Of a stretch of 64,000 nucleotides of DNA, positions 18,411 to 61,239 are shown in pieces (position 1 is the stretch's first letter; each line of letters starts with the position of its first letter). The position numbers and the translations under genes are program-made. The DNA lies in the NCBI GenBank assembly GCA_902728285.1, contig CACVBU010001120.1, positions 682,001 to 746,000 of the forward strand, in the 5' to 3' direction. The stretch is from Clytia hemisphaerica. Lineage: Eukaryota > Cnidaria > Hydrozoa > Leptothecata > Clytiidae. The notes beneath the pieces are model-generated. The model made no database searches. It saw only the letters and a program-made list of their open reading frames with translations, and had not been told where the DNA came from.

Positions 18411-19343
18411 TTCGATGGCTTGCTGTAATCAGCTTGAAAACGTGAAAGAAAGATCCAATATGTCGGAAGGCTTTCTCGCCGGCACACGAGCGAGAAAAGC
18501 AAACGAGATTTTTAACGTTCGATTAGAAACGCCCTTGCCGCCATTAAGAATTGCCTCGTCAGCAGAAATATTTCCCCGATAATCCGACTTTTTCGGAATT
18601 TTTCTGCCGCCCCCATTTTTTTCCGAAAAAGCCAAAAAAAAGAAAATAATTTTCAAATTTTTATAAAACTTTCAACAGATAACAGATGATTCAACAGCTC
18701 ATCACAATGTAAGAGGTACTGTATACTCTGATTCCTTCAATTGTATATTTTTGAATTTTTGTACATATTTGATCATATCTTTTTAACTCACAGACACAGA
18801 CAAAAATATTTTTTCTGTCTGGCTACTACTGTAGATCAGATTCTTTTAANAGGGACCCCTCGCTTAAAAATGATAACAAGACACTCACTTCATAATCATA
18901 TGAAAAGCAACTTCCCAAAGTATTAGCATGCAAAACTCTTTCTTCGCTCCATAATTACAAATTATAAATTTGATGTTCACTCAACTTTCAGAACTTTCAA
19001 CTGGCTTTCTGAAGGCCTTCGAATTTTCTTGCGCTCTTGTCACACCAAGTTGTCGACACAAATGCGCCAGAAAATTACAGTACGAGTGTAGAGGCCAGCT
19101 CTGGTTCGAACAGTCTAGAATTCGCGCTCTTCTCCTAAGAAAAACCCTTTGCTTGGAGTCGAGTTGCGGGTTTTTATGGTATCGGTATCGGCTTCAGAAC
19201 TCCCAATGAGCCCCAGTTGTGTTGGTTTCAGTCAGATGGAGACGCCATACTGTTTTCAAAGCAATTTTTCGATATCTCTACAGGAACTAGCAGTAAGTTT
19301 TATGTTCTTTGAATATGTTGTTAGGGGTTTTTGGACCAATATA

Positions 19344-20063
19344 CCAGACCCCCGCGCTCGATAGGATCGAACATCGGAACGGCTCGATGACGGATCGATA
19401 TGTGATCGATGGATTACTTATCGATCCGGATAGGATATCGATGGAAGATTCAGCCATTAAAAAGTCTTGAGTATCGATCCTTCGTTGATCCATTATCGAG
19501 CTAGTATTTCAATCGAGTATATCGATTCGTCATCGATCGTTAATCGATTCGTCATCGATCGTTAATCGATTCGTCATCGATCATTAATCGATTCGTCATC
19601 GATCGTTAATCGATTCGTCATCGATCATTAATCGATTCGTCATCGATCATTAATCGATTCGTTCATCGTCATTATCGATCGTCATCGATCGTAATCGATT
19701 CGTCATCGATCGTTAATCGATTCGTCATCGATTGTTAATCGATTCGTCATCGATCGTTAATCGATTCGTCATCGATCGTTAATCGATTCGTCATCGATTA
19801 TAAATCGATTATGCATCGATGACGAATCGATTAACGATCGATGACGAATCGATATACTCGATAGAGTCGATAGGGTCGATAAGATCGATAAAAGATCGAT
19901 GATAGATCGATGATAGATCGATAACTAATCATAAGCTTAAAAAAATCTTGAGTATCGATCCTCTATCGATCTCCTATCCGGATCGATAAGTAATCCATCG
20001 ATCACATATCGATCCGTCATCGAGCCGTTCCGATGATCGATCCTATCGAGCGCGGGGGTCTGG
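19344..20063. mobile_element. CCAGAC...GTCTGG element with 6-bp duplication, copy 1 (TCGAT foldback)
   Basis: Left arm CCAGACCCCCGCGCTCGATA and right arm TATCGAGCGCGGGGGTCTGG are inverted repeats that stay nearly identical for about 90 bp. AATATA stands directly outside both ends (19338-19343 and 20064-20069). The interior is a minisatellite of TCGAT palindromes, so most of the element can fold into one long hairpin. There is no coding capacity. Confidence 0.8.
19523..19800 (+). repeat. 22-bp TCGAT minisatellite
   Basis: About 12 head-to-tail units containing TCGATTCGTCATCGATCGTT, period 22 bp, with occasional variants. The array is followed by inverted copies of the same unit at 19810-19860, making the array part of a palindrome. 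Each unit contains ATCGAT sites. Confidence 0.85.
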
Positions 20064-20718
20064 AATATAGTTTGATTTCTTAAACATCACAAACAAGGGA
20101 GGGGTCCCTTTAATAAAAGTAAAAGACAAAGCTTTCTTCTCACAGTTAGTGGAAGTACCTCCATTTTAAGCATGTTCAAAGTTCACAATAACAACTTTCT
20201 TTTTGTTGGAAAAGGAGGAAAATGTAGTTGAAGGTTGAAACTTTGTATGTTTATCAGAAAAAGGGTGAGGAATTCAAAAATCACAATTGCTAATTTTAGT
20301 TCTTTGATTTTCATGTAGTTTTTTTCACTTTTTTGCTTCTTTAGCATGAGAATGTCCCAAAAAAAAGTTTATATTTCTGCCGAAATGAATTTTCTTTTCC
20401 TTTGGGGTTTCTCCTCAGAAAAACTTATTCTTTACTTATATATACAGTAACTAACTTTTTGTTTTGCTCCTCCATTTCTAGAGGCCCCTTGAAAATGGGT
20501 CCTATCACCTTTTTTGACTCGTTTCAACCTTTTCCAAGCTAATTTTCTTCAAAAACAAAAATAAAACAATGCAATGTCTTCTTTTTACAAAAAAAGATAT
20601 ATCTTTCAGGGTTCGAATTATAAATTCTATCTAAGAGCTTCGTAATATTTTCGAGCATAGCAAGGTAACAAAGGAGCGCCGCAGGCGAAATCTTTTAACT
20701 GTTTGCGAAACATTTTTA

Positions 20719-21136
20719 GGCGGCAATCACAAATATCTTCGTTTCGCGTCGCCCGACCGACTCTCGAAAATTGAGTAGAATTGAGTCGGTGATTTGGTAA
20801 ATTTGTCGGACTCTTTGTGTCAATAACCTTTCCTTCGTTCAAAAATTTTATTATTCCCAATTTTTTGCAAACGATTTCTAGCGCATTCGCAGCATTTTGA
20901 CTTTGTTTATCATTACATGCGCCATTTTGGGGTCAGAGGTCACAGCGTTCAAAGGTCATAATTTTAAACCACCCATAACACGCAGTTGTTTTAGCTGCTG
21001 GCTGGCTGGCAGTATCCAAGAATGTACTCCAAAAATGGATTGAAAAATAGAAACCCGAAAATCTTTACGACCGACCGACCAACTCACTTTTTAGACCCAA
21101 CGAGGACGCAAAATGAAGATATTTGTGATTGCCGCC
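20719..21136. mobile_element. MITE, GGCGGCAATC family with TTA duplication, copy 2
   Basis: GGCGGCAATCACAAATATCT and its mirror AGATATTTGTGATTGCCGCC, with TTA at 20716-20718 and 21137-21139. GACCGACCGACC near 21070 corresponds to the inverse motif in copy 1. TWA-type 3-bp duplications and GG-starting TIRs fit PIF/Harbinger. Confidence 0.78.
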
Positions 21137-21819
21137 TTAGTATTTTGCGATGTTGTTTGGAACAAAATACGAAAGTATCACCAATTCATTTCTCTAGAAA
21201 AGCGAAGTTAAAACTTGAAGTATCAAGAGATTAAAGACAAAGCAATGTATAGTGAAGTTTTGAAGTAACGAGTAGATAAAGCAATAGATAAATACCCTGA
21301 GTATCAGAGGTTTTCAAAGAATATATTAACCTCTGAAGACCAATAATAGAAATTTTATTGCGCATGTGTCAATCTAATCACTGTAGAAAGAATCAAAGAT
21401 GAAGAGCAAATATTACCATATTAATGTCTAGCAGACTGTATCAGTATGCAGTTTACTATTTACGAATTCCCCAGAAACCTCCAAGTGTAATTGAAATGAG
21501 TTTATTTCAAAAGAAATCTTTTACATGATCCCCCAATGTATAACTACTAAACTTTTAATTATGGAAATATCACTTTAATTGAATCGAAATAATAGACAGA
21601 CTTTATGTTATGATTCTCTATCACTGACTCTTTTTACAAAGCATTGATGACTTTTTTAAGTTGTGCTTTCAACGACGGGAATAAAAATATCAACTTTGAA
21701 CTTCATCCAAGATCTTGGATGGTCGTCATGGTTACTTTTGTCTTCGTTGATTGCGCGCTGAATAGAATCTCTATTCGTCGGCACAGCGTCAATATATGAT
21801 TTTGACCTGTGCTATTCAC

Positions 21820-22371
21820 GGTAATAGATAAACGAATGAGTAAAATAGCAAAGTGGCGAGTTGATAAAGCAATAGATAAACGAGTGAATAAATTAGCGAG
21901 GTAGCAAGTTTATAAAGCAATAGATAAACGAATGAAGAAAGTTGGAAGGTAGCGATTTTATAAAGCAATAGATAAACAAATGTGTGGAGTAGCGAAGTGG
22001 CGAGTTGATAAATGCAATAGATAAACGAATGAATAAAGTAGCGAAGTGGCGAGTTGATAAAGCAATAGATAAACAAGTGAATAAATTAGCGAGGTAGCAA
22101 GTTGATAAAGCAATAGATAAACGAATGAAGAAAGTTGCAAGGTGGCGATTTTATAAAGCAATAGATAAACAAATGTGTGGAGTAGCGAAGTGGCGAGTTG
22201 ATAAAGCAATAGATAAACAAATGTGTGGAGTAGCGAAGTGGCGAGTTGATAAAGCAATAGATAAAAGAATGTGTGGAGTAGCAAAGTGGCGAGTTGATAA
22301 AGAAATAGATAAACGAATGAAGAAAGTAGCAAGGTAGCAAGTTGATAAAGTAATAAATAAACAAATGGGGT
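21820..22371 (+). repeat. 48-bp minisatellite, about 12 units
   Basis: Units contain GCAATAGATAAAC(A/G)AATG and GCGA(A/G)GTGGCGAGTTGATAA, with a mean period close to 48 bp. Because 48 is divisible by 3, frames stay open on both strands (up to 175 codons). The translations are pure repeats (for example SFVYLLLYQLAT on the minus strand) and are not evidence of a gene. Some 15 bp beyond the last unit lies GTTAGGGTTAGGGTTT. Confidence 0.9.
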
Positions 22372-22574
22372 TCGATTATTATCAGTTAGGGTTAGGGTTT
22401 GAGCTCGAGAGTCACAATATAAGGCTGAAGGCCTTCTTAGGGGCATTTGTACCCTGTGACTTAACTTAGGATCCCGTAGGCACACCGGTAGGGTTGGGAG
22501 CTTTCTTAATTAAGGTCTGTAAATTACACGCTATAGGTATCTTTAGGTATTTGTGAATGACAGCTTCCTGTTGT

Positions 22575-22657
22575 GTCTCGTTGGCGCAAGTGGTTAGGCA
22601 TCAGGTTTGTAAACCAAGGTTGCTTGCATTTTGGTGGTTCGACCCGGGGTTGGAGAC
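22575..22657 (+). repeat. tRNA-like remnant, possible SINE head
   Basis: GTCTC at the start pairs with GAGAC at the end. An A-box-like TTGGCGCAAGTGGTTAGGC and a B-box-like GGTTCGACCC are present about 46 bp apart, with a GGTTTGTAAACC anticodon-arm-like stretch between. The T-stem does not pair and the anticodon arm is irregular, so this is unlikely to be a functional tRNA. A duplicated GGAGACCTGTTTCAGG follows it. Confidence 0.45.
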
Positions 22658-22689
22658 CTGTTTCAGGCCGGAGACCTGTTTCAGGAAAA

Positions 22690-24060
22690 TACAATTAGAA
22701 AACAACTAGAAACACTTGAGAAAAACAGAAAATCAGGATAGAAGATAAGAAAGTAGAAAATAGGGGGGAAATAAAGACGATGCATCCTGGAGTATGATAT
22801 TGTTTGCCAACCAACAGAACAGGTTTTAGGTTTTTTATCCAGGCAAAAATGCCCGAAATTGGCCCATTTTGGGCATAAAAACGGCCGGAGAATCGTCAAA
22901 AATTGAAAAAATCAAAAAATATCTCAGATTTGTGTTATTTGGGTCCAAAAAAATTAAGAACCACTAATTTGGAGAAGAAAAGTCTCTACAGCCCACTGCT
23001 AGTGGTATAAAAATCTGAACTTTATTTTTTAACGTACTTTGAAGACCTCATAATATTTTAGGACCCTCCCGGCACTCCGGAAAGTGCCGTTTTTCGTGCT
23101 CACTTTCAGTGTTCTGTAGCACAATATTCGGTAGTCTGAATTGCAGAACTCTACAAAACCACAGGTACAGTGATCTACCACCCGTTTTCCAGTTCGGTTA
23201 TTTTATTTCAGTGTATTTTATACAGAATCTTGGTGAGTTAATAATTTCTTTGATTGACATTGATTTGCGCTCAAAAACAATAATTTCAAACGTTTTCAAT
23301 AGAATGTTTATGAACCTATTATGCCTATTGACATTGTCATTCATGACCTTTATAAACTTAATTTCAGCAAAAATTCTTATTGTGCTGAATAAGATGCTTT
23401 CAGTATCGCCAGATGGAAATTTTCACTAGGAAAATACTTCAGAGAGCTGTTTTAGAGGTGTAAATTTGACTATTGTCATTGATTGTCATGGTATTGACAA
23501 AATGACATTTACTTTCACAAATTCAAGGACAAAATATTTTTCACGAATATAAACATTCACGAATCAGGTGACCAAAATGAAAATTTTTACATGAAAAATG
23601 GCTTTAAAGTTTCCAATAATTCATTGCGAGTATGAATTTTCGCGAATCACTTCTTTAAGAATATTCAAAGACATATGTAAATTACTTTTACAAAAAAGGC
23701 CAAAATGCACAAAAAATTGCGAAAGTTTGTACGCCTAAAGTATAATGAAATTAAGATATTTTTACCCTGAAGCTTTGAAAATCACAACGAAATTCTCTTA
23801 CTGGTATATCGAAAATTAGAACCCTCATATGCATCCTATTCTAGCCTAAAGTTTTTGCAATTTTTGACTTGCTGCAACTGATTTGACATGAGGAACTACT
23901 GTATAACCCTCGTTTTAGTTTAAATAAATGTAGGTGTAGGTGGCCCTTTAACGAAAGCTATTTGAATTTGTTGGTACCAGCGACTATGGAACCTTTTAGC
24001 TCTCTCCTAGCAGTAGGTTTTTTGTATAGTGCTATTGTCTTAGTTCTGTGAAATTTCTTT
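22690..24060. other. Intergenic stretch upstream of the SNAP-25 pair
   Basis: No exon recognised. It contains a one-sided relic of the CGTACAAACTTTCGC element (about 23510-23740) and short hairpins such as CGGCACTCCGGAAAGTGCCG near 23073. The promoter and 5' UTR exon of the first SNAP-25 gene are presumably here, but I could not define them. Confidence 0.4.
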
Positions 24061-24136
24061 TTCAGTGAAGAATTAATAATAAGAAGAAGATAATCTAATA
24101 AATTGTTTTTGGAGACAATCAAAATACAAGTACAAC

Positions 24137-26113
24137 ATGATGACTGAAGAGGAACAAATGAGAATGGAATTGCAAAGAATGCAGAGGAGAGCTGATGAAG
24201 TCACAGATGAGGTTAGATGTTGTTTTTAAAGTCCATACACTGTCAATGTTTAATTGAAGTTTATACAGTGTAGATTTCCTTTTTGAAGACTCTATCAAAA
24301 ATAAAAGGGTTGGAGTGCTCTTTTGACGTAAATAGTAACCACTACTTCCATTGGACTAGAGTGGTAAAGTAACATCATTTTAGTTGGACATTGTTAAATA
24401 TTATTTGAAACACTCTGCTCTGTTATTAATGTTTTATTTTTTCATATTCTTAGTCTCTTGAATCAACTAGACGAATGCTTGCATTAGCTGAAGAGGTAGG
24501 TACAATATTTTTAACTTTACATAGCACTATGGTATATTTCAGCATTTTACAAAAAAAAGATGAATTGCAAAAACATTATGTATTTGAAATGATTCAATAT
24601 AATTGCGCACCGCATCAAATGTAGAATAATTTTCTTAATTTCTCTTTTAGACCCAAGACACAGGAATAAAAACACTAGTAGCTCTTGATGAACAAGGAGA
24701 AAAACTGAATAGAGTTGAAGAAAATTTGGATCAAATCAATGCTGATATGAGAGAAGCAGAGAAAAATTTGACTGGTCTTGAAAAGTTTTGTGGTTTGTGC
24801 GTTTGTAGTTGTAGAAGGTAACAGATACTCTTGATGACTGCACAATTAAATGAACATGATCAACACAAAACCTCAGCACAATGCATTTTGTCCAAGATAT
24901 ACAAAAAATTATCAAATCTTTGAATTATTGGTCGTTGCTGCAAGCTTTTATGGAACTTTCAATATCAAAAATTATTAAATGGTTTACAAATTAAGTTTCC
25001 GTGCATAGTAAGATTGAATTCTTATTTAAGGAGATTTTCATATTAATTTTGCTATTATATACTATATAATAACCCCTGGTTATATCTATAATTATTGCAT
25101 TTTATTGTTTACTTTCCAGGAAGCAAGACTTTGAAAGTTCTGAACAATACAAGAAAGCTTACAGTAAAGGAGACTCAAGTGGCGGGGGAGCCGGAAGTTC
25201 TGGACGGAACAATATGCAAGGAGGTTATGATAAAGCTCCGGCTACAGGATACATCCAAAAGTATATATCTTTACTGTTGAGAGGGAAAGAAAGGCACATG
25301 GGTTTGAATAAATTTATCACACTTTGGAGTTTTCAGTATGATAAGAAATTGCTTACAATTCTATCAAAATTACTTGTAACTTTGAAATAAAGTGGTTGCA
25401 TTTTCTTCCTTATTTTTTTAGAGTGACTGGAGACGCAAGAGAAGATGAAATGGATGAAAATATCGGGTTTGAATTTTTAACTATGCATTTTTTTCTTGTG
25501 TGATTCATTACTACATAAATCTGCTGTTCATGTTCATGTTTGTTTTTTCATATTTTTCATATCATAACTAACTATGTATTCTTATAATTACAACTATATT
25601 TCTTTTAGCCAAGTTGCAGGCATTGTTGATAACTTGAAATCTATGGCAATGGATATGGGAGGTGAACTTGATAAACAAAATACTCAAATTGATAGAATTA
25701 CTGATAAGGTAACATTATTTCATATTCTTCATTTTACACAACTTCTTCTTTTACTAAACTACAAAATGTGAAATTTTCTCCAACCACGTCGTTAATAATG
25801 GTTGATTCTGTAGTCTAAATTATATGTTTTAGATTTCCTTAAAACTGAATACGTTTTGCTCTTTTTGTAAAGGGACTGGATTTATTCATTTGATTAAACA
25901 GAATTCTTTCAAGTTTCCTTTGATCAGGAATGTCAAACAGAGAATTTGCTAACTCTTGTAATATTTTCCTTATGTAATTAATACACTATAGTATAATTCT
26001 TTTCTGATACTTTTTCTGCCTCAAACATTGTGTTTTTCATTCTTTAGGCAACTGCTAATGAGTCAAGAATTGATGTTGCCAACAAAAGGGCTGAGAATAT
26101 TCTGCGAAAGTAG
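24137..26113 (+). CDS. SNAP25: SNAP-25 (Qbc-SNARE), tandem copy 1
   Basis: Seven exons: 24137-24211, 24454-24495, 24651-24817, 25120-25260, 25422-25466, 25609-25708 and 26048-26113. They give 636 nt, or 211 residues (family about 206). The first SNARE motif (about residues 10-85) includes SLESTRRM and the central-layer glutamine Q54 in LDEQGEKL. A palmitoylation-type cysteine cluster [10 protein letters not shown] follows, with Cys86, 89, 91 and 93. A Gly/Ser-rich linker leads to the second SNARE motif (about 145-208), with central-layer Q180 in LDKQNTQI. The protein should anchor to the plasma membrane by palmitoylation and pair with syntaxin and synaptobrevin in exocytosis. A polyadenylation signal is at 26809-26814. 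The start was chosen because the first ATG follows an in-frame non-coding stretch; a second Met directly follows. Confidence 0.96.
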
Positions 26114-26808
26114 ATTGGGCTTGAATTGAAAATATGGTTGCGGGCTCACAAAATCAAATTATGCCAAAGAAATTAGTCCAGAGAGGCACGCATTTTAGAA
26201 TGTTTTTAGAAGTAGATATTAATTTTCCATTCATGTGCTTCCTTAACCACAGCCAATATGTAGGTTAAAGGAAGTGCTATAGAACACCCACTAGACATTT
26301 TCTACATTTATCACGTGTAGCTTCCTTGAAGAAGGAAGTAGGATTGTCTATCAATTTGCATTGTGTGTTTATTCTTTTGGTGTCTTTGAAGTTTTTTTTC
26401 GAGGCTCTCTTCTATATGTACAAATTATAGAATGTAGATTTTTTGACATCGAAATTATTTATTAAGCAATCCTTTTTGCTTCTCTTTTAAATATTATTTA
26501 GCAATATTATAACCCATCCAGGGACAAAGTTAATCATCTAATTTTGAAACACTGACAATTATTATATTTATTCATATTATTTTGATTTAAACTAACAACG
26601 TAACGGTTGGGGTGCATGGTTTTGATTTGTATCATTTTGTTCTTCTATTTAACTATTTAGGCCATAGTTTATAATTTTTAGGTTCAGTTTATTATCTTGT
26701 TGTCAATATCAAGTTTGAATGGGTGCACCTTGTTATATTTATTTTTCTTATTTTTTTATTATTTTACCTTAGGTCGATGTTGGGTATTCTTGTTGCCAAA
26801 ATTTGTAC

Positions 26809-26814
26809 AATAAA
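26809..26814 (+). promoter_or_regulatory. Candidate polyadenylation signal of SNAP-25 copy 1
   Basis: AATAAA in an AT-rich stretch about 700 bp after the stop codon, giving a long 3' UTR and ending about 570 bp before the start codon of copy 2. Nearer canonical signals were not seen. Confidence 0.5.
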
Positions 26815-27385
26815 AGTTAATGTCTGATTTTTTTCTTAAAAGATTCAATATATATTTTTACACTGAAACTTTGAGGAATACATTTTTGCTATTTTTATCC
26901 AGGGGATTTTTAATGAACAATATTATAATTTTTTTGCGATTCAATATCATATTAATAATTTTGCGAATTCGCCTCCAAAGCAATATCAAGGCAGAGAATA
27001 ATCTGAAATAACACTTGTTCGTTTAATAATTGTAACCTTAGTAACAGATGCTCTATTGACTGGACTAACAAAACAAAAAAGGTATGTTTAACAATAATTA
27101 CTCATTAATTTCAGTTAATTAATCTCAATTTCATTTTTTTCATATTCTTGTTGCTTTTGCAATCTTATAATGTTTAAAAACTTTACGGTAATTTCATTGA
27201 GGCAGCTGTCTTCCTGACTAAACCAAGAACTAATTACAATAGCTAGTAAAATTCTGGTTTGGGGATCTCATTAATTTTGATTCAATAGTGATATTGTTTG
27301 AATTGTATGAATTGTTTTGTCCACAGAAAAAAAAAACGAATAAAAAGAAAACAATAAGAACAACAGGAAAAAAAAATCAAGGAAG

Positions 27386-31718: not shown

Positions 31719-34700
31719 CTAAACGTTGGGAGCAATGGCAAACGAAAAAGCGGCGCCACTAGTCAATCCGGCCACCAATGAGAAAACGATGAGGGTGGCG
31801 GTGATCTCCTGTTCGTGCGGTTCCACCATGCTGAAAGAGAAAGAAAACAGAATGAATGTAAGTTCGATTTTCGGTTGAATTTGAACTTAAAGCTTTGTCG
31901 TATAAACAAGCTGAAAATTTGATAATCGAATCAATCAGATTTCACAATCGAAATCGAAAGGGAATCGATCAATGACTAAATTTTAATTAATCGAATTAAT
32001 CGATACAAAAAAAGAAAACAAATCGATTAATGTTCCATAGTTTGTCGATTATCATTCGATATTTATTTCGATTGGAAATCGATGACCGTTAAAGTTTGGG
32101 TCGATTATTAGTATTCTTGATTCAATCGATTGAGTATCGAACTATTCGATGCGGGAAGTAAAACAAGTTACAAGTAACGCAGATGTGATCATGTGCTTTC
32201 TGTTGTGTAAGCTCACATTTTAGACTTCTCCTATAAAGGAGCCTGTAGACTATATTGTAGTTACAAGAAGCAGTTCTCATTCAATCAGTTCTTTTACATA
32301 AGAACATTTTCGTTTAGTTTCGGTGAAATCTGCCCATTTCTTTTATAAAAGGAATCAACCACTGACCTTTATATATCCATGGGCCAAGCTACATCCGCCA
32401 TCTTTGATAGAAGTCTTTTTTGAAATGGTACCCGTAAAGAAGCCATTGTAGTGTTAAAAATTAACTTCTAACGGCGTTATGAAGTAATTTTTCGAGGAAA
32501 AGTAGATCTAACGCTCTGGATGCATTTGCATCGCTATTGAGTAGTGCCGCCATTAGGGTACCACTTTTCAAAAAGCTCCGATCAAAGATTTTGCTAGGGT
32601 ATATAAAGGTCAGTGGAATCCAAACGACTGATCTACTCAATGAAGTAAGTCAAGATGAAACCTTTTTCTGACAGAAAGAAGCAAGAGAAATGACCAGAAA
32701 AATTGTCATCACTAACCTTGGTCCGTAAATAAAAGGGAGACTTCCTAAATAGCCTCCCGTGAACGCAAATAAAGCCATGAAAATGATCGGTAATGAATCG
32801 TGGCTGAACGCTACAGGGATGTTTGATAACCGTGGTTGCACGTTGCAAAATAAGAATAACGGAATGAATAATACTCGTAGTGCGGCCAGGACGACTAACA
32901 ACCAAGGTCTTTCATTGGTGGGCTGAAATGATGTAAAAAGGAGGAGCAATTAGTTTGTTAGTATGATGGAAAATTTTTCTATTTTCGATTGCTTAATGTC
33001 GTTTGGTGGTGGCGTTTTTAAGGGTGCCAAAAAGAAGTTGTCTGTACACAGACACAGTATCTACGGCTAATTTTAAAATTCATTCCGGTTGAGGGTCTGT
33101 TGTCATTGTCTTTTTTCATTTAAGGTTTTTCAAACTGACCGCTGCAATAGAGTGTTGGTGAAAGAGGGGAGACGATGTGAGAAGTGTTGCTATTTACAAA
33201 TCATACTTCATCGTAGAGGTCTCCGTACGGGAATTTTTTCATCAAACAAACAATGCGCATAGAGTGTACTACGAAGCGATGAAGTGAGATACACTCCGGT
33301 ACAGAGTAAAAAGTAGAGGCACAAGCCGGCACAAGAAATTGCGCCACTTTGTTTGTTTAGCTACCACACTGCTGCTTCTAATGAATGACACAAACTCGCT
33401 TGAAAGATCTTAATTTCCATTGAAATAAAAAAATACTTTCGTTTACCTTTTGAAAGAAACTGACCGCTGATTTTCCAATATAATCAAATAAATTGTAAGT
33501 TAAGAAACATCCAACCAGCACGAAGAGCGATTCTAAAGAATAAAATCTAAGCGTATACAGTACAGAACAAGTTTTAGACTTTAAGTTTGAAGTTGAGACA
33601 TAATTAGCATGTCATTTCTAGATTCAGCAATCTCAGATTTTCATATACCCCACGTATGAAAGTCACTGGAATTCTTTAAAGATTAAGAAAAAGTATCATT
33701 CCTCGGATGCATACTTTAGAACGCCATGATCGTATAGCATGGCTAGACTGGAAGTTATCTAATTACCCCGTTTAATAAGGTTTTTACGGTTTCCTGGAAG
33801 CAAAAGTTCTTAACAAAGAAGTTACGTAGTGCCCTCCTTTAATAAGATTTACAATGAAAATGAAAAAATAATTAATTACCAGTCCATTTGTTCTGATCAG
33901 TCCACGTGGATTCGATGCGAGCGGTCAGGGAAGGGAAAACAGAGAGAGTGACCAGGAAAGTGATGTAGACTGTCAACATCATACATTTGATTTTCTTAAT
34001 GATGCGTAGGTAATTGATATCCTTGTTGTTGTTGTTGGTAGTCTCGCCTTCTTTTTCTTGTTTATCATCCTCTTTGGTGTCTTCTTTATTTGTTATAGTG
34101 CTGTTTAAATGACATTCGTTTTCTGTGGTTGGAGAATTAAGGATTAGAAAAGTTAATTGGGAATCGTGTGAATCGGACTTCGATTAGAAAACCTAATTTG
34201 GAATCGTAAATTGGAATTGTTGATTTACATGCTGTTGATTGATTATGGGTTTACAGGTTTTAACATCCTGCATTATGATATCTGGCTGACCTTTACCATT
34301 TTCTTTCTCAGTGTTATGATTGGTTCAACCTATGTTTAACCCATCTTTCTGGCATCTTAACTTTCGTGATGATAGTTTGTCAATTTTATAATATATTTTC
34401 ACCCCCATAAAGTGATATAAAGTAACCTACCACATTCACAAGTGCAGAAACAAACTCCTTTCGTAATGTTGGTGTAATATTTCACGATGGGCTGAAAAAG
34501 GGAAAGTCGCAAATTGAGTAGAAATTTCGGTGGAAATTTAATTTAGCGGGTGCCTGGAAAAAGTAAATTTGACAGGAATTACTACTTTTGCGGTTACAGG
34601 ATATTTTTGGCCGAGAATCGTTATTGAATGAGAGAATAATCTCTTTTAAGGCGAGAAGTTCGACTTTGGAGAATGTATGGAAAAAATTGAATTTGGTGTA

Positions 34701-37700
34701 TGGCGCAAAAATAATTTTCAGCGGGGACTTAATTCGGCGGATTTCAGGGAAATCTGGCAAATCGGTTATTTTGTCTTTGATAATAACTAGAAGACGCTGA
34801 CCTATTTTGAATATTTTGTGCGTCAATCAGCGGCCTATCGATTTAAATTTTACTTTAAAAGTGGCTTGTCAACTATTGGAAAATTAACATTATTTTGTCA
34901 TCGTTAACTTACCAGTCGTTCAAGGTAAACATAGGCAAGCAGTGAGATGATCATTGCAAATATACCAGTACAAAAATATCCAAAAGAACTGTCCGTAATC
35001 TTTGAACCACCTAAACAAGATTCAAGATTTTTTATTTAAGAAATTAAATTCCAATGTGATGATCTCTATGATCTGTATCTTTGTCTACACATGGCATATC
35101 TATAAGCGTGTGATCTATGCCAAATTCTAATGTTTTGTACCTAGTCGATACTAAAAGAAACAAATCAAAATAAGACTTGTTTAGGCCATAAGGCCATGCT
35201 TACAAGAGTCTTTATCGTTCTTAAACTATCTATTCTGAATCGCAGACCTCTATAAAACCTATAAAATCACAGGTAGTATTGTCTATAAGTAGCACGAGTC
35301 TGTTAGTGGACACAGCAGCCTAGAAACTATCTGTTCATCGTTGATTTTATCCAACAAAATAGTTTAATCTCGTTTTGGAAGATTACAAAATAATAAATTC
35401 TTAGAAGTCACCTACCTACAGAAGACAAGATACTAACAATACAAACAAAGAATCCTCCAAGACCTTGTCCAGCCATCACTGCTTGAATATATCGTGGTGG
35501 CATCATCCCGGCAAGCCCGAACAATGCACCCTGCAACATAGCACCAAATCCTGGAGAAAATATTATAAAATATTTCAAGTTATTTCGAGAAAATTATGAA
35601 AAAGTGGATTCCACTTCTTGTATTTTTGTAACCCAATTTCCTTAACTTGCATTTCCGTGTCGCTTCACGCGTCAGGTAAAAAGGAACCATGGAATGGCCC
35701 GAACATACCCGAACATTTTCAGGTCATATTCAGGCCAAAATAGTAAAAATATTCTTTGACTCGATGAACATTGGTGCCAAGTTCAGGCCAAAAAAACCGA
35801 CCCGGCCCGAACATGGACAGGTCAATTCGAGTGGCCCGAAAAAGTCCGGGCAATACCGTGGGTCGTGGTATAAATTCACGTAATGACTTTTTGAATTTGA
35901 TGAATTCATTTCTGACGTCAAATATTTTTATCGAATTCCTACAACCTTCAATCAGCTACTAGAGTTCCCTTTCAAAGTTTCGCTTTTATTCGAAAACTTC
36001 TATTGTGTTTAGCGTGTTTTGTTGATTAGACAGGCTTTCTTTGATGACTCGAATGATATGGAGAAAAGCCTTATATTGACTTACCTGAGATGAGAACCAG
36101 AATGATCATTGTTGCTATGAAAAATTCTTCTGTCCCTGAAAGTGAATAATAAGTACTAGTTATCGCATGACTTCGAGTGCAATACGAGAAATATTTTACG
36201 AGTACCGAGATTTTTCCGTAATATTTTTCCGAGCCTTTAGGCGAGGAAAAATATCGGTAAAATCTCGGAACGAGTAAAATATCGAGTATTGCACGAGAAG
36301 TCATGTGATAACTAATTTATTGTCAACTCAAAAAAATTGTCCTGATAAAAATCTCTTTTGTTTTTGTTGTTTTAAAACTTACTTCCGCCTTGCTTCTTTC
36401 TTCTGTGTAGTTTCGAATGTTTTTATTCGAAAATCTAATTCGAACGTTAGATTCGAACAAAAAAATTCGATATGTTCCCGCAGAAAATATTCACACAAAA
36501 ACAAAACAGAAAAGCATTTTTCGATCATTTTCGACCCAGAAGTTTTGTTTTGAAGAGTTGCAGATTCAGAGATGTATTTGAAAGTTTCTAGATTGATAAT
36601 TCAAAATGCAGATGGTGTACAGTATTGTTTCGATAGACAAGAAACCCCCCTTCATCATTGGATTAATCAGATTGATAATATTCAGTCTTTTTCAATGTTT
36701 TTGTTTCGATGCATGGAAAAGAATAGCAGAGGAAAGGAGTCCCATGATGGAAATGTATGCTTGTAATAATGGTTAAAGAGCAACATTTTTTCAGGAGCAA
36801 TACAATTTGTATACTTTCTTGATTATCGTCAAGCTTTAAATGTTTTGAATTTTAGAAGGAAGATGTAATGATTGTTGAGTTGAAAATTCAAGGACGTACC
36901 TCGTCGAGAACGAGAATTGGGAGAGAACTTTTATAAAAATCACTCGTCATTTGGTTTAATACAAGACATTTCACTTCCCTTGCTTTGTTATGAGAAATTT
37001 TATTGGCAAACATTCAAGAATCTCAAGTTTTTTTGTATGCATGGATAAAAAACTGTTTGGTTTATCACACGAACGAATTTTATACCAAAAGCTGAAAATA
37101 TTTGGGTGGTCTCTCAAGTAGTTTTATAATTTCTTAGTTCATCAGATTTGATTTTAGTGTCTTTTATGGAAGAACTCCAAAGTAAAAGTTAATCTGAAAA
37201 TATTTTTGTTGCGTTTTCCCTTTGACTCCCAAGTCAGTTTCTCCGAAAGTCAGTTCTTTTCGGCTGTTTTGTTTTGATTTTTCTCCCGCCGCTTACCCAG
37301 TCCCCCAAAAGTCAACGCGGTCATATTTCCATACTAGAGAAATATGAAATATCGCAAATATCTCGATGCTCTCGACCAATCAAAACGCTGATATTTTTTT
37401 GGGTCGGCAATAAATACAAATACTAAATTGCACACCAACGAATTTTGCTGGGTGAAAAATACTCTAGCCTTACATTCGGATCTTCTGTTGTTTCTTGTTG
37501 TTTTCCAAGTCTCCTGCTGTGTATTTTACCTTCTTATTGCCGACCCAAAAAAATATGAGCGTTTTGATTGGTCGAGAGCATCGAGATATTTGCGATATTT
37601 CATATTTCTCTAGTCTGGAAATATGACCGCGTTGACTTTTGGGGGACTGGGTAAGCGGCGGGAGAAAAATCAAAACAAAACCACCGAAAAGAACTGACTT

Positions 37701-40700
37701 TCGGAGAAACTGACTTGGGAGTCAAAGGGAAAACGCAACAAAAATATTTTCAGATTAACTTTTACTTTGGAGTTCTTCCATAAAAGACACTAAAATCAAA
37801 TCTGATGAACTAAGAAATTATAAAACTACTTGAGACCACCCAAATATTTTCAGCTTTTGGTATAAAATTCGTCCGTGTGTGATAACCAAACAGTTTTTTT
37901 TATCAATGCATACAAAAAAAACTTGAGATTCTTTGAATGTTTGCCAATAAGATTTCTCATAACATAGCAAGGGAACTGAAATGTCTTGTATTAAACCAAG
38001 TGACGAGTGATTTTTATAAAAGTTCTCTCCTAATTCTCGTTCTCGACGAGGTATATACGTCCTTGAATTTTCAACTCAACAATCATTTACATCTTCCTTC
38101 TAAAATTCGAAACATTTAGAGCTTGACGATAATCAAGAAAGTATCCAAATTGTTTTTCTCTTGAAAAAATGTTGTTCTTTTAACCATTACATACATTTCC
38201 ATCATGGAACTTCTTTCATCCTCTGCTGCTATTCTTTTCCATGCATCGAAATAAAAACATAGGAAAAGACTGAATGTTATCAATCTGATTAATCCAATGA
38301 TGAAGGGTTTCTTCTCTATCGAAACAATACTGTACACCATCTGCATTTTGAATTATCAATCTAGAACCTTTCAAATACATCTCTGAAAATCTGCAATTCT
38401 CTTCAACACAAAACTTCTGGATCGAAAATGATCGAAAATGCTTCTCTGTTTTGTTTTTGTGTGAATATTTTCGGCGGGAACATATCGAATGTTTTATTGT
38501 TCGAATCTAACGTTCGAATTAGATTTTCGAATAAAAACATTCGAAACTACACAGAAGAAAGAAGCAAGGCGGAAGTAAGTTTTAAAACAAAAACAAAAAT
38601 AAATTTATATCAGGACAATTTTTTTGAGTCGACAATAAATTAGTTATCACATGACTTCTCGTGCAATACTCGATATTTTACTCGTTCCGAGATTTTACCG
38701 ATATTTTTCCTCGCCTAAAGGCTCGGAAAGATATTACGGAAAAATCTCGGAACTCGTAAAATATTTCTCGTATTGCACTCGAAGTCATGCGATAACTAGT
38801 ACATATTGGGAATGAAGGCATTTCATGATTATTATTCCAAGTTGAGCTATCAGGGCAAACGGTATCAACCCTTAGATATTCTTACTACAAAAGTGGTATT
38901 GAAATCGCCCTCCCCTACCTTCGGGTAGACAGCTATCGAAAAAGGAGCCTCCGATTGTGGTAATACCTAATAATTGGTACTTACAAGTGGACGTGTTAAC
39001 GAGAACGAAGGAGGCAGTGATGGTGAAGGAGATCAACAACATAAAGATTGAAACCACCATCCGCACAAAACGAGAACATCTAAAGAAAGGAATGTTTGGG
39101 ATATTAATGATAGAATATTTTTTCCGATTTTTGGTAAATCTTTGTCTTCCGTTGCAGAATTACCTTGTTTGATTTAAGACAGCATATTTCAAGCGACTCA
39201 CTCTGCCGATAAGGTGGATGCATTCATCGATTAAGAGTATCGATTTCTTACTTGAGAAAACTATTGTCGAATTGATTGAAATCGCTTTAAAATGACGAGC
39301 CCTATAATCAGAGCGTTGCTCATTTTTTTCGTTCGAAATCTCTCGTAGAATGAGAACGAACGAAGCTATTCTCTATAATTCGGGAAATTCGATGAGGTCA
39401 AAAAAAAAAAGAAGCTTTCTCTCTGTGTACGCTAAATGAAATCCGATAAACTCAAAATTTCTTACTTGTGAAAGAGGAAGACGTTAAGGATCATTATGAA
39501 CATGTTGGGTCCCATTGAACCAACGGAAAAATAATTCTGAAAAGTACTCTCCAAGTTTGGCTTGTTCTTCAACTTGGCTGAAAAGTACTAAAAGAAAGAG
39601 AGCAGTATATGATGTCATTGATCTACGAATTTGTATTTATAGGTGCTGTTATTGAGCCTTGATATTAAAGCCTCTGACCCAGCTTTGTTCCACAATTTCA
39701 ATAAAACGAATATGACCTAGCACTGTGTTATCATAGTAGGCTGTCAAGGTTCCATCCTTTGCCATAAGTTTTTTTTCGAAGCGTTTTGATAAAGAAAAAA
39801 CAATTGCTGACGTCAGCATATTTCAGTAAAAATGAATACTTTGCATTTTTGCTGACCCTACCAACCCAAAAAAAACAAATTTTCTTTCATCGTTATACAC
39901 TGTTAAAGGTGAAAAGCTGTTGCCTACTTGAAATAACTCAAGATTTACTTTCTATGATGAGGTTATCGAAATAGGGTAAAATTATTGAGGTTGCTTTAAA
40001 GATTTTTGATTTTGGAGAAAGTTAAACCCTCTGACTATGCCAATTTCATTTTCTATATCAAAAGGTTTTAAAGTTATCAGTCAGACAGAGAATCACAAGT
40101 TGTGTTTTTTATGACACATATATATTTCAACTGACCAGAAGACCGCGAGATTAGTACCCCCCATTAAAATTAGAAGTTCTCTACACAGTACAATACAAGA
40201 TAGCGAATATCAGAAAAGAGAGGATTTCAAATAGATGACTTACTGCGTTGGCGGTGATGAAGAAATTCCATGGCAACAGCGTCGTGCATCCAAGTAAATA
40301 GAAAATTTGATATGCTATGTGGTACCTGTAGGAAAAAATTTGTATGTTTTAAAAAAGAAATTCTTCCAATTTTGCTCTACATCTTCCATGGACATTGGTA
40401 GATTTTATTCCTTCATTGTCTTTGTGGTGGGTCTAAGACCATGTTCAGACGTTACGGTTCCGTTTCGCTCCGGTGTGATTTTCGTTACGGATCGAGAGTG
40501 TTCCCATTAGTTTCGGAACGTTTCGGAACAAGAAAACGGAGCAGTTCCGTTCTGATGAAAATAGAGGAGTGAAACCGTTTCGATCTGTTTTGCTTTGTAA
40601 CGTCTTCTTTTGACGTATTGAATTTTGACGTTCACGCTTGTTTCGGAACCGTTTCGTTTTGGAGCGATGAAACGGAACCGTAACGTCTGAACATGGTCCA

Positions 40701-41189
40701 AATTAACATCCTTTCTAAGGATTTCGGGTCTGCTCCTCAACACCCGTTATATTGGGAAAAACTAAGATTTCGTGATTTCGCTAAGAGGTAGCAAACTCAA
40801 AAAGCCCTATATTCTAACAATTTTTGGCTTCGATAGCCTCGAACTATCAAAATTATCCCTAACGCTTGATATGTCTACTCTCGGATACCTAATAGCCGGG
40901 GGGTTGGAATAAGCGGAGGGTTTGGAAAAAATCTCAAAACTTAATAAGCCGGGGGTTGGAATGAAAATGTCCTGGTTGGAAAATCTTCGAAAAAGAAGCT
41001 AATGCAGTAGAATTAGGGCAAAAGAGGGAACTTTCAAAAAAATTTCCCAAAAATCAATAAGCGGTTTGGAATAAGAATGTCCTGGGTGGAAAGTTTTCTA
41101 AAAAATTAATTAGCGGCCCCCTCCCTCGGCTATTAGGTACCCGAGATTACTCACCTATCTTGAGGTACCTTCCGTTCACAGGTGCTCAT
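31719..41189 (-). CDS. Equilibrative nucleoside transporter (SLC29 family)
   Basis: Twelve exons join without a phase error: 41155-41189, 40244-40325, 39466-39587, 38985-39079, 36085-36135, 35416-35550, 34913-35010, 34431-34491, 33880-34122, 33447-33532, 32717-32922 and 31719-31830. They give 1326 nt, or 441 residues (human ENT1 is 456). Family landmarks in order: PQDRYH then LLPWNFFITA (TM1, residues 8-39), FGAMLQGALFGLAG (from about 129, TM4), a charged Asn/Glu/Lys loop (about 227-262) between TM6 and TM7, SVFPSLTARI (TM7), CNVQPR (TM9-10 region), FIYGP and the C-terminal SGAAFSFAIA helix. The protein should move nucleosides down their gradient across the plasma membrane. A cysteine-rich CFCTCEC lies just before the loop. 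The start ATG gives an N-terminus like other ENTs; there is no signal peptide. Confidence 0.95.
31920..32155. repeat. TCGA-rich palindromic stretch in a transporter intron
   Basis: Dense TCGAT/ATCGA motifs in both orientations (for example TTAATCGAATTAATCGAT near 31985-32002). Composition resembles the interiors of the CCAG...CTGG elements, but I found no matching ends or flanking duplication, so it may be a decayed copy. Confidence 0.35.
36153..38802. mobile_element. 2.65-kb near-perfect palindrome (foldback element)
   Basis: The left arm from GTACTAGTTATCGCATGACT (36153) to GGGTCGGCAATAA (37413) is mirrored from TTATTGCCGACCC (37534) to GATAACTAGTAC (38802). Arms are about 1.26 kb and appear well over 90 percent identical by eye. 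The loop is about 120 bp. GTAC at both ends is self-complementary, so it could be a 4-bp target duplication or part of the arms. No frame in the arms resembles a transposase. A single terminus-like relic (GCACTCAAAGTCATGCGATG) occurs near 46215. It lies in intron 4 of the nucleoside transporter. Confidence 0.8.
40437..40698. mobile_element. MITE with GACCATGTTCAGACGTTACG ends
   Basis: GACCATGTTCAGACGTTACG at 40437 is mirrored by CGTAACGTCTGAACATGGTC ending at 40698. Arms of about 35 bp continue into GTTCCGTTTCG. The interior repeats TTTCGGAAC motifs. No exact flanking duplication. Located in transporter intron 1. Confidence 0.65.
40879..41146. mobile_element. MITE with TCTCGG(A/G)TACCTAATAGCCG ends
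   Basis: TCTCGGATACCTAATAGCCG at the left is mirrored by CGGCTATTAGGTACCCGAGA at the right. The interior has repeated GGTTGGAA(T/A) motifs. It ends only 9 bp from the first coding exon of the transporter. Confidence 0.6.
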
Positions 41190-42030
41190 TTTCTCATCAG
41201 AGAACTCAACGCCATTGTTTGCTTCCCTCTCTCACGAAAAGTTGGAAAGAATTCACAGTTCCTTTCCAAAAACTATTTGACGTCATATATATTTATATGG
41301 TTGGTGGCTTGACGTTAGAATTTTTGATGTTATATAGTGCTTCAGATAATTATTTTATCAATTTCGCCTTAGCGAAAGTATTACCAGTGAACTGTTATCA
41401 GATAGAATAATATCTCACTTTGGCTACTTCATCATCTATTCAGAGTCCCTTTGTTAAAAGTGATTATTGGTCGTAAAAACAGTTTCTCAAAATCTGATGG
41501 TAGATAGAAATCTCTTTATAAGGGTATGTTTGCACGTTATTTTTTAGTTTTGGAAAACGATTGATATTTCCAAATCTATTTTAGCTTACAATCTGGAATT
41601 TTAGGAGCTGAAATTTAGTGATTCCATCGATTTTAACTCCTAAAATTAAAAAATCAATTTTAGTCTATACAGAAAGAATAACTAATTTAGGTGAAAACTT
41701 GACACCCGAATTTCTGTTCTTAGAAGTGCGTTTTTAAATAGTTTTCAACACTGGTGAATCTATAAAATAACCTGATTTCAAATATGTAATTCTTATTTGC
41801 ATTGAGGGGACCGAAGTGCCCGAAATTTCCAGTTAAAAACAATCAAATTATGTGCATAATTTTTTGAGAATTCAAAAGAATCCAATCAAGCATGAGAATA
41901 TGTAATTAAAATACGATAAGAACAAAGAAATGACATTATCATTGCACACGTGCAAATTAATTCCCATTGCAACTAAGGGACCCCTTACAGACACGCTTCA
42001 TATTGAGGAAAAAAGCATGAATTCATTTAA
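41190..42030. other. Upstream region of the transporter gene
   Basis: Expected to contain the 5' UTR and promoter of the minus-strand transporter. An in-frame open stretch continues upstream of the chosen ATG for some codons (NNGVEFSDEK), so a longer N-terminus is not excluded. No clear TATA or initiator. AT-rich and otherwise featureless. Confidence 0.4.
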
Positions 42031-42157
42031 TTCTATCTGATAATAATTCTATGGTAATTACAATCAGCATTCTGCGGCGGCGAGGAAAAAATTTATTCTA
42101 TCTGATAATAATTCTATGGTATTACAATCAGCATTCTGCGGCAGTGAGGAAAAAAAT
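42031..42157 (+). repeat. Two-unit tandem duplication, period 65 bp
   Basis: TTCTATCTGATAATAATTCT starts at 42031 and again at 42096, each followed by ATTACAATCAGCATTCTGCG. Copies differ by a few bases. Confidence 0.85.
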
Positions 42158-42299
42158 TAGAAAACGAAAGTACTGGATACGGTGGACGAACTCACTAAAA
42201 TTAATTTACAAATTACACGCTCATATAACCACGGACGATTTTCGCGGATTACGTCATATATCTTTGTGTCTTTAGCTTCACAGTTTGGATTTTTCCTTT

Positions 42300-42885
42300 A
42301 TTTTCTTATAAGCATATACTTTATAAGAATCAAATCAATAACTCTTGATAGATGGTGATATACTCTTCGGGAATTAGTTCTTACAAAGTAAACAAGGGAT
42401 GGCGCGTAATATAAGCATATTTATTTTTGTTACAAGCATATACTTTATGAGAATCAAATCAATAACTCTTGATAGATGGTGATATACCCTTCGGGAATTA
42501 GTTCTTACAAAGTAAACAAGGGATGGTGCACAATATGAGCATATTTATTTTTCTTATAAGCATTACTCTTGTCTCCCGAATAGACCCCCCCCCGCTAATT
42601 GTTAAAAGAAAAAAATCCATCCCCCCGTTCTTATTAAGACCCCCCCCCCCCCCGCTGATTAAATTCGAATAATTCAATATTTTATTACAGTGTAGATAGA
42701 CCTTAAACTTGTTAAAATTTTCCTTTTTGTTAGTATTGGTTCTTATTTTACGTGTTTATTTGCTAAAGTTTCTTTTTTGTTGTTGAAATTTTCCTACACC
42801 CCTGCTTATTCGGACCCCCCATCTATTCGGGAGACAGGAGTAACTTCATAAGAATCAAATCAATAACTCTTGAAATACGGTGGTT
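42300..42885 (+). repeat. 124-bp tandem repeat, third unit split by a MITE
   Basis: AGCATATACTTTATAAGAAT at 42311, its second copy at 42435 and the start of a third at 42559 show a 124-bp period. The third copy is interrupted after AGCAT by the element at 42566-42840 and resumes at 42843 (ACTTCATAAGAATCAAATCA). Confidence 0.8.
42566..42840. mobile_element. MITE with CTCTTGTCTCCCGAATAGA ends, TA target site, poly-C interior
   Basis: Perfectly placed insertion: TA at 42564-42565 and 42841-42842, inverted 19-bp ends differing at one base. The interior holds C-runs of 9 and 15. The uninterrupted tandem units on its left show what the site looked like before insertion. Confidence 0.8.
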
Positions 42886-43496
42886 CTTAAGAATTAAACA
42901 ACCATTGTTCTTAAGTTGGTTAATTTTTTTAGCGATTTTGAGCCTCGTTGTTCTTATAAAATTGTTTCATCAAGGCTCGATGTAAAGTAGATTTCAGATT
43001 AGCTTCCATCTCTACTTCTTTTTTTTCCCGTGCAGTTTTAACTTTAGGCGAAATTTTCGACTTCAAGTCGTCTTGTCGTTTTATATAGCGAAAGTATTAC
43101 GATAGTCTTTCTGTGTGGCGAGAAAATTTTTTGGGCGCAAATTATGGCGTGGGCGTTTGGCTGCGGGCGTACTACGGCCAATATTATAAAGGTGGACTCA
43201 CTCACAAAGATAAAAAACAGCGCTTTTCTTGATAGTTAAAATACTCTAGTGCAAGACGTGTAACCAAGCCTTGTAAACATTCATCTTCATCATGAGAACT
43301 TTTTAATGGCTGCTGCTGTATAACTTTTTATCATGTTTTCTTATGTTTTATGGTCTTTTGTAGAGTATTTGAAGAGGTTTATTATTCGTTTACTACTAAG
43401 TATTTTATGTTTGTGTAGTTAGTGAATGCACCAATAAATTGATAATGCTCAGTAAAGTAGTACTACAGAAAGAGTTAATTTTACACAACAACATAA

Positions 43497-43912
43497 CCAG
43501 ACGATCTCAATCGAACGGAATCGACGATCGAACCAGTCGAACCAAATCGAACGCAATCGACCGATTGAAATTCGATTGTCGAACGCAATCGAATCTCAAT
43601 CGAATATTACCGCAATTTTCAGATTGATGTTCGATTGCGTTCGATCGTCGATTCATTGACCCCCGGATTGTTCATCGCATAATTTCTACGGGAAATCGAA
43701 AGTAATTTCATTCGGCTTGTGATGTTTGAGAGCTTGGATGTTGGGAAGCTACAAGAATAAAGCCAGACGATCTCAATCGAACGGAATCGATGATCGAACC
43801 AGTCGAACAACAATCGAATCAATCGAATATTACCCAGAATTTTGATGTTCGATTGCGTTCGATTTGGTTCGACTGGTTCGATCGTCGATTCCGTTCGATT
43901 GAGATCGTCTGG
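43497..43912. mobile_element. CCAGAC...GTCTGG element with 6-bp duplication, copy 2
   Basis: CCAGACGATCTCAATCGAAC at 43497 is mirrored by GTTCGATTGAGATCGTCTGG ending at 43912. Arms match for more than 60 bp. ACATAA stands outside both ends (43491-43496 and 43913-43918). A third copy of the terminal sequence begins inside at 43763, so the element holds an internal partial duplication. The interior is dense in ATCGAA/TTCGAT. Confidence 0.82.
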
Positions 43913-44105
43913 ACATAAACCCTCTTCTTCAAAAAACTACAAACAGCACAGGTATGATATTTTTTTCCTTTTTTCACCAGATAGTTATGTGTTTAATGTT
44001 AACCAATTGTGATGTAAGTTTGATGACAGTTTTTTATCTGATGAAGTTTGATTGTTGTTCGATGAGTTTGGATTAAGAAAAAGTTCCAGCTTTTCCTCCC
44101 CGATG

Positions 44106-44401
44106 CCAGCGCCAGGCGATGATGTCAACCTAACTCTATCAAACCAATTTTGGTAATCGAACCATCAAATTTCATCAAACGAAATCCAACAATAGGTGTT
44201 AGATTTATGGAACCTGATCGAACAGTAATTGAACTTTACCGGAAAATCTTCAGTTTGATGTTTGATTATATCGCAGTTCGATTAAGTTCGATCAGTGTTT
44301 TTGGTTGTTTTTGTAGCTCAAATGGTTCCAGTTATTGCTAGCGGAACAGCTCAATCGAACACATGGTTCGGTAATCGAACAGTTCGATTGACATCGCCTG
44401 G
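44106..44401. mobile_element. CCAG...CTGG element with 6-bp duplication, copy 3
   Basis: Left end CCAGCGCCAGGCGATGATGT, right end GACATCGCCTGG, with CCGATG directly outside both (44100-44105 and 44402-44407). The left end has an extra CCAGCG step. The interior again carries TCGAAC/GTTCGA palindromes. It lies 187 bp from copy 2. Confidence 0.72.
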
Positions 44402-44497
44402 CCGATGGGGTGATAGATATTGGCCTGCTCTTTAAGGTTTCAGCGTGGGTGTCTGCTAATAAGCCGTCAAAGTGTAAAAAGAATGGGCAACAAGGTA

Positions 44498-60740: not shown

Positions 60741-61239
60741 TTAAAGTATTACTTGTTTGTGTTTAGTTCCACCAAGCATGGATAAAATGAAGGTTCGAAA
60801 TTCAATTTGGATTTGGAATAACTTTGTTTATTTACAAAGGGGTACTGAACCCATAAAATTCACAAAATTTTCCTTTGTTTTTCTCCTTTTTAGTCCCGGT
60901 AAGGGTCCAAGGATCGAAAGTCGGGCGATACCCCTCCCCATCAGCTCACAAGCCTAGTACCCCTCCCCCGGGTACTGAACCGCCCACCGCTGGTTAAATT
61001 CGATTTTTTCAATATCTTTTTGTAGTATAAATTAAACCTATAAAACTCTAATTGCTTCAAAAGAAAGGTCTATAATAAGAGGCACAAGTTTCAGGCAATA
61101 CCAATTCCAAAATGCAAAATTTATTTAATCAAATCAGCCCCAACTGCTCCAAAGACCTTCCTCGTCTGTTAAAAAAGTATAAAATTTCAGAAAACCAGCT
61201 GTAATACAATCTTGTTTCAACGTTTATCTAATATTCACA

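Follow-up and report, generated by a model that had tools for sequence, protein, structure and literature searches.

A 64,000-nucleotide stretch of the genome of the hydrozoan Clytia hemisphaerica (assembly GCA_902728285.1, contig CACVBU010001120.1, positions 682,001 to 746,000 of the forward strand; hereafter, the window) carries three segments, elements A, B and C (Table 1), that are very probably non-autonomous cut-and-paste DNA transposons of the miniature inverted-repeat transposable element (MITE) or foldback type. They would represent at least three related families, with ends reading CCAG(A/G)C and arrays of TCGA-containing words. Their CCAG...CTGG boundary and the 6-bp footprint left in the target are firm, as indicated by exact duplications around most of the end pairs that were read and by paralogous empty sites in which the 6-mer is present once. 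An original prediction, made from the window alone, had proposed a transposon group with these ends and duplications, and many copies were indeed found in the genome.

Three elements and their families

The boundaries and flanks previously drawn for A and B were recovered exactly, base for base, and the terminal 20 bases of the two ends agree at 20/20 positions in each of these elements. The start proposed for C, at 44106, had to be moved: the inverted repeat begins at 44112, after an extra CCAGCG, and only 8/20 bases agree between the two ends of C when it is drawn from 44106. Genome matches to C drawn in that way mostly start at query position 6-8, with a minority at position 1 (best 40 of 389), and in 3/10 fetched genome copies the place of CCAGCG is taken by a shorter CCAGC. 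In family B, a third, internal terminus was found in 25/28 copies and so belongs to the regular architecture of this family.

There are 748 CCAG...CTGG pairs 60-3000 bp apart in the window, and three of them (A, B and C drawn from 44106) have identical 6-mer flanks, against 0.30 expected from base composition. A chance origin of these pairs is ruled out by this difference and by the reversed end motifs, with 0 places genome-wide. Folding as single-stranded DNA, compared with shuffled sequences, gave z = -20.2 for A, -16.5 for B and -5.0 for C drawn from 44106, and the density of TCGA is 76, 62 and 24 per kb in A, B and C, respectively, versus 3.95 in the remaining window. A TCGA-rich patch was also observed at 31860-32150 of the window (16 TCGA in 300 bp), with neither recognisable CCAG ends nor strong inverted repeats; it is possibly a decayed relative of the elements.

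Table 1. Coordinates in the window of elements A, B and C and of their parts and flanks.
Feature	Positions	Strand	Description
Element A	19344..20063	+	720-bp foldback-like non-autonomous transposon (very probable assignment); arms about 105 bp, 95% complementarity
Left 6-bp target duplication of A, AATATA	19338..19343	+	same as 20064-20069
Right 6-bp target duplication of A, AATATA	20064..20069	+	
22-bp tandem unit ATCGATTCGTCATCGATCGTTA within A	19521..19810	+	13.3 copies; Tandem Repeats Finder
Element B	43497..43912	+	416 bp; terminal inverted repeat 64 bp, perfect
Left 6-bp target duplication of B, ACATAA	43491..43496	+	
Right 6-bp target duplication of B, ACATAA	43913..43918	+	
Internal third terminus of B	43763..43912	+	bounds 150-bp palindromic sub-unit without duplication of its own
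Element C	44112..44401	+	290 bp; true start CCAGGCGATG
Left CCGATG of C	44100..44105	+	belongs to host repeat; same flank in 10/10 fetched C copies
Extra CCAGCG between left CCGATG and inverted repeat of C	44106..44111	+	
Right CCGATG of C	44402..44407	+	

The three elements belong to three large repeat families in the genome (417 Mb, 951 contigs). Queries with each element returned 1,708 first-look candidates for B, 892 for A and 389 for C, and the best 40 of each were scored. The end motif of family A (27 bases, up to 2 mismatches) was found at 382 + 363 = 745 places and that shared by B and C (20 bases, one mismatch allowed) at 1740 + 1707 = 3,447, while the reversed controls gave 0 + 0 in both cases; a rarer end variant adds 293 + 293 places. 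These figures count ends and not copies, and copy numbers are lower because most B copies carry three ends. Neither end pattern had an exact match in viral contigs. As in MITEs and foldback elements, terminal inverted repeats stand at fixed ends in many copies. Main matches, self excluded, were 81-97% alike in A and 83-92% in B (best 40 of each query), and the first 100 bases of A copies are 96-97% alike between copies. Thus, the earlier remark that interiors differ under a common TCGA grammar applies between the three families and not within a family, where copies are alike. A copies that were read measure between 624 and 5,365 bp, closer A end pairs being present in the end listing (e.g. about 240 bp apart at C41); copies not picked for length are mostly shorter than 1.5 kb, and element lengths overall are 0.3-5.4 kb. 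The middles of A copies vary by 22-bp tandem units and nested repeats.

Element C has a different history. Scattered substitutions aside, all ten C copies fetched (10/10, from the best 40 of 389) lie in the same flanks, CTCCCCGATG on the left and CCGATGGGATGATAG on the right; eight of the ten pass an exact 6-mer script, and the other two have mutated end or flank bases. When up to 3 mismatches are allowed, the same host repeat is found without C, with a single CCGATG, at 139 places (44 exact; control 0). If the window flanks are joined across C, they align with three of its empty copies (85-89% over 175-181 bp). Given the shared flanks and the empty host repeats, C was inserted once, duplicating CCGATG, and the compound was then amplified. 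The fetched C copies are therefore a single insertion amplified inside an unrelated repeat, with C spreading at least partly as a hitch-hiker; this applies to the fetched copies, and independent C insertions may exist elsewhere. Of the three independent exact duplications initially claimed in the window, those of A and B stand, while that of C reflects one old insertion amplified in its host repeat.

The six-base duplication and its target

Duplications were read at the best 30 of the 892 A candidates, the best 30 of the 1,708 B candidates and three long A copies. Both ends were present in 56 of these 63 loci (L001-L063), and the other seven were dropped for want of a pair; one of them, L058, corresponds to the copy counted later as L066. 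In family A, 26/28 duplications were exact over 6 bp, 1/28 was of seven bp and 1/28 had one mismatch. In family B, 16/28 were exact over 6 bp, 4/28 had one mismatch and 8/28 were worse. The B figure was obtained with the outermost end pair within 700 bp; choosing the pair with fewest mismatches gave 6/28, a misleading value, since that choice often took the internal terminus. Four more long A copies (L064-L067) and a B relative beside a hAT gene (L077:415-953) all had exact 6-bp duplications (5/5), as did three of four further end pairs, the fourth, C39, being an inverted duplication. Altogether, among 65 end pairs of A or B type, 50 have an exact duplication of 6 bp, one of seven, five of six with one mismatch, and nine have none or worse. 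Hence other duplication lengths, which had been named as grounds for rejecting the family, were not seen beyond the one copy of 65 with seven bp. L060 contains another A copy (345-1285, exact GCATAA); this copy and the ten C copies, which share one insertion, stand outside the 65.

When flanks were paired between different copies as a control, exact agreement was found in 2/600 cases for A and 1/756 for B. The first 47 exact duplications comprise 42 different 6-mers, so that, as in MITEs and foldback elements, a constant length of unrelated sequence is duplicated. A central TA is present in 19/47 (binomial p about 1e-7 against base composition, a post hoc figure that ignores dinucleotide bias), and the 6-mer pattern is roughly symmetric, as expected from a two-fold symmetric transposase. 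Insertion thus shows a weak preference for palindromic targets with TA at their centre (NNTANN).

The flanks of 49 insertions were also joined minus one 6-mer and compared with the remaining genome sequence that was read. Three empty sites were recovered: L034 versus L037 (96% over 237 bp, single TATATA), L029 versus L048 (89% over 244 bp, single TCATAA) and L041 versus L027 (93% over 151 bp, single TATAAA). In addition, L042 versus L006 is uninterrupted (92% over 210 bp), with one base different at the 6-mer. Most of the 49 comparisons gave no informative match. Among the candidates, L032 (tandem array), L051 (within another A copy), L054 (self match) and L039 (40-bp match) were uninformative, the 6-mer region was not conserved in the matches of L043 and L063, and L009 and L064 showed a one-base difference in the 6-mer within a short or weak match. 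Since the paralogous empty sites keep a single 6-mer, they show insertion with duplication, beyond mere similarity of the flanks.

Long copies, hairpin arms and the search for a transposase

Long A copies, picked because both of their ends were listed, were read whole: C25 (4230 bp, L061), C208 (5365 bp, L062), C197 (4444 bp, L063), C693 (3036 bp, L064), C768 (3500 bp, L065), C895 (2506 bp, L066) and C56 (2757 bp, L067). Their outer ends are flanked by exact 6-bp duplications in 7/7 cases, and for this reason the whole long unit must have moved, or else have grown after moving. L062 contains a long interspersed nuclear element (LINE; RVT_1), as does C35 (2736 bp, L109; RVT_1 63 bits, 3/4 frames of at least 100 codons scanned), and L063 contains inverted repeat arrays. 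L061, a 4.2-kb A element with an exact GTTGAT duplication, includes two homeobox-like exon pieces on the plus strand (about 1886-2065 and 2783-2841), which, joined by hand, match the homeodomain with 28.8 bits (cut-off 22.9), and a 159-codon frame on the minus strand (1184-1660) that ends in a HeH/LEM-like domain (32.9 bits, cut-off 28.9). One other genome match to the homeobox exon region was found, 93% alike at C811 (best 40 of 750 candidates). The natural reading would be that this element captured a piece of a host gene.

The original prediction had called for a longer relative with the same ends and a transposase; longer copies exist, and no transposase was detected in the frames scanned. 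Pfam was run on 38 frames of eight long copies (L061-L067 and L109), including 6/6 frames of L061, 4/7 of L062 (at least 70 codons), three repetitive frames of L063 and all 22 of L064-L067, and the matches were to reverse transcriptase, endonuclease and HeH/LEM domains instead. No frame longer than 165 codons was present in nine mid-length copies. The copies scanned thus show no transposase gene, as is the case in MITEs and foldback elements. An autonomous partner was not found among the wide end pairs listed (100 places in three listings and all 35 in a fourth), and such a copy may lie among the unlisted ends. The rarer end variant adds wide candidate pairs by coordinates only, such as C82:248531-251484 and C128:2155365-2158080. 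At C39:4306-8671 (4366 bp), the outer flanks of the two element ends are exact reverse complements over 20 bases; this pair is an inverted duplication about 4.4 kb across, either biological or an assembly artefact.

Selection for hairpin structure, which had been suggested to explain the interiors, found little echo in the arms. In family A, likeness between arms was 0.975 within copies and 0.968 between copies, and 7/2000 shuffles reached the within-copy mean; in family B it was 0.926 in both comparisons, with 916/2000 shuffles reaching that mean. Arm homogenisation is therefore absent in B and slight in A, where the small excess may be due to putative subfamilies. Hairpin strength follows from the long arms, so that a separate selection for it is not needed.

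Candidate enzymes and known systems

If A, B and C are non-autonomous cut-and-paste transposons, a DDE-type transposase would be supplied in trans from elsewhere and would bind the repeated TCGA-containing words near both ends; the unit would be excised and joined to cuts staggered by 6 bp, and repair would fill these cuts, generating the duplication. The variation in length (about 0.3-5.4 kb) would result from gain and loss of 22-bp units, nested insertions and, occasionally, host DNA. In Galileo, tandem repeats of the arms hold extra binding sites (PMC4079207), and by analogy the TCGA arrays could be repeated binding sites, a role that is also possible for the 22-bp tandem units of element A. 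Several observations weigh against this explanation: no autonomous partner was found, so that the cut-and-paste step is deduced from structure; a spliced transposase with exons shorter than 70 codons would escape the frame scans; the duplication is not exact in 12/28 B copies; the arms give no clear sign of selection on the hairpin itself; and the sampling of best-scoring loci under-represents decayed copies and biases the set to well-kept ones. The elements might instead be palindromic segments that are not transposons and owe their spread entirely to the other repeats that carry them or to local duplication. This describes C, whose fetched copies all share their flanks, and also the long pair at C39; however, the 6-mers that flank A and B copies mostly differ and these families have clean empty sites, which refutes it for both, and as a general explanation it is very improbable.

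Regarding the enzyme behind the transposons, a hAT6-like or a P-like transposase is most likely, and one of a new superfamily is possible. The hAT6 type, that is, a hAT transposase making 6-bp duplications, can be proposed tentatively. hAT dimerisation domains are common in the genome (99 matches), its hAT elements L074 and L077 have non-canonical 5-bp duplications, and the hAT end of L077, CAGGCGCCGCGG, resembles by eye the family A end, (C)CAGGCGTCCGCG. However, in none of ten loci fetched from these matches (0/10) is the domain enclosed by CCAG...CTGG ends and a 6-bp duplication. Ends were clear in five of them, reading CAG...CTG, with duplications of 8 bp (L069, L071, L072) or 5 bp (L074, L077); hAT ends read CA...TG. 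A hAT group with 6-bp duplications has been described (PMC12730594, citing Kapitonov and Jurka 2007), and the likeness to hAT6 is in duplication length alone; hAT6 is defined by its hAT transposase, whereas no hAT gene was found inside the elements, whose arms of 64-105 bp contrast with the 10-25 bp given for hAT (PMC3942097). It was also observed that hAT5-like elements with 5-bp duplications (L074:596-4799 and L077:1245-4489) coexist with 8-bp hAT elements in this genome.

A transposase of the P superfamily (THAP-type), which would make the elements counterparts of the foldback-like Galileo of Drosophila, is a candidate to be held with similar reserve. P-type RNase H domains gave at least 150 matches (best 150 of 247 candidates), many of them in long open frames, and Galileo has long variable arms, which in some copies include internal tandem repeats holding additional binding sites, and its palindromic target contains TA words (PMC4168063, PMC4079207). 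Nevertheless, its duplications, with consensus GTATTAC, are of 7 bp, rarely 8 (three copies), its transposase is known, and the 7-8 bp expected of P elements contrast with the single seven-bp case among 65 copies here. In a comparison of coordinates that covered part of the listed ends and matches, no P-type domain was enclosed by a pair of element termini, the nearest terminus being 3.5 kb away and facing away from it (C128). As a separate observation, six P-type transposase matches, all containing two in-frame TAA, recur regularly about every 2.8 kb along C870:32974-47261, which suggests a decayed P element repeated in tandem.

Mobilisation by a Mutator-like transposase is unlikely. Mutator elements typically have long arms and take up pieces of host genes, but their families usually make duplications of 8-10 bp, so that a strict 6 bp would be unusual for them. 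The MULE domain had 91 genome matches, although 3/14 control prokaryote genomes match it too. Foldback elements are mostly assigned to Mutator (PMC4079207), and a range of 4-10 bp is given for MuDR (PMC10045372). An undescribed superfamily with CCAG ends and 6-bp staggered cuts is rather doubtful, and a fuller version of it, in which an undescribed DDE enzyme would cut with a 6-bp stagger at NNTANN and recognise TCGA arrays in elements that take up host DNA, including homeobox exons, is more doubtful still. In its favour, ends and duplication fit neither IS3EU/GingerRoot nor Dada; against it, the distinction is drawn from published descriptions, with Repbase, the ends of hAT6 and several superfamilies outside the comparison.

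Dada and Polinton had been named beforehand as the known groups with 6-bp duplications. The list was incomplete, as IS3EU/GingerRoot and hAT6 also make them (PMC10045372, PMC12730594). The ends of the elements are, as had been noted, unlike those of Dada and Polinton. Dada inserts in multicopy small RNA genes, and its U6 and U1 families lack terminal inverted repeats (PMC3706591), whereas the elements have them and an Rfam scan of the window gave 0 matches. Polinton/Maverick elements share 6-bp duplications and long inverted repeats with them, but measure 15-40 kb and have their own protein-coding set (PMC8969392), in contrast to elements of 0.3-5.4 kb with no such genes in the frames scanned. 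In IS3EU/GingerRoot the ends are TA..TA, occasionally TG..CA (PMC10045372), unlike CCAG...CTGG. KolobokP composite-like transposons have excisable terminal units, and a copy may consist of a single internal part and a single unit; by analogy, this recalls the third terminus inside B copies, but Kolobok has RR..YY ends and 4-bp TTAA duplications, and the 6-mers here, varied in sequence, do not fit the TTAA of piggyBac and Kolobok. Tetris, a foldback element of Drosophila virilis, is likewise non-autonomous, with tandem-repeat arms, a variable middle and no autonomous partner found; it differs in its 8-10-bp duplications and its repeat unit of about 220 bp, and is represented by three complete copies. 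Thus, judged by described ends, the combination of end sequence and 6-bp footprint appears to match none of the superfamilies compared. MITEs with 6-bp duplications are as such not new, because fungal MITE families with 5-6 bp have been reported (PMC4522978); no description of CCAG...CTGG ends with a 6-bp duplication was found in the literature searched by titles and the starts of abstracts, Repbase being outside its scope.

The window has other features of note. An imperfect palindrome of about 2.7 kb at 36148-38807, with blocks of 85-99% complementary arms, is probably another foldback or an inverted duplication. Three Kazal-type inhibitor exons lie on the minus strand at 51000-52700, and at 61232-63776 there is a LINE that has frames for an endonuclease and a reverse transcriptase.

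Taken together, the strict 6-bp duplication and the CCAG...CTGG ends form a signature by which the transposase can be traced, and insertions are available in number, with empty sites, for dating and for studies of target sites. The case of element C illustrates that an inserted element spreading inside another repeat can be mistaken for an independent insertion. Should the driver belong to a known superfamily, these families would be one more non-autonomous group; if not, the transposase would be of a new kind.

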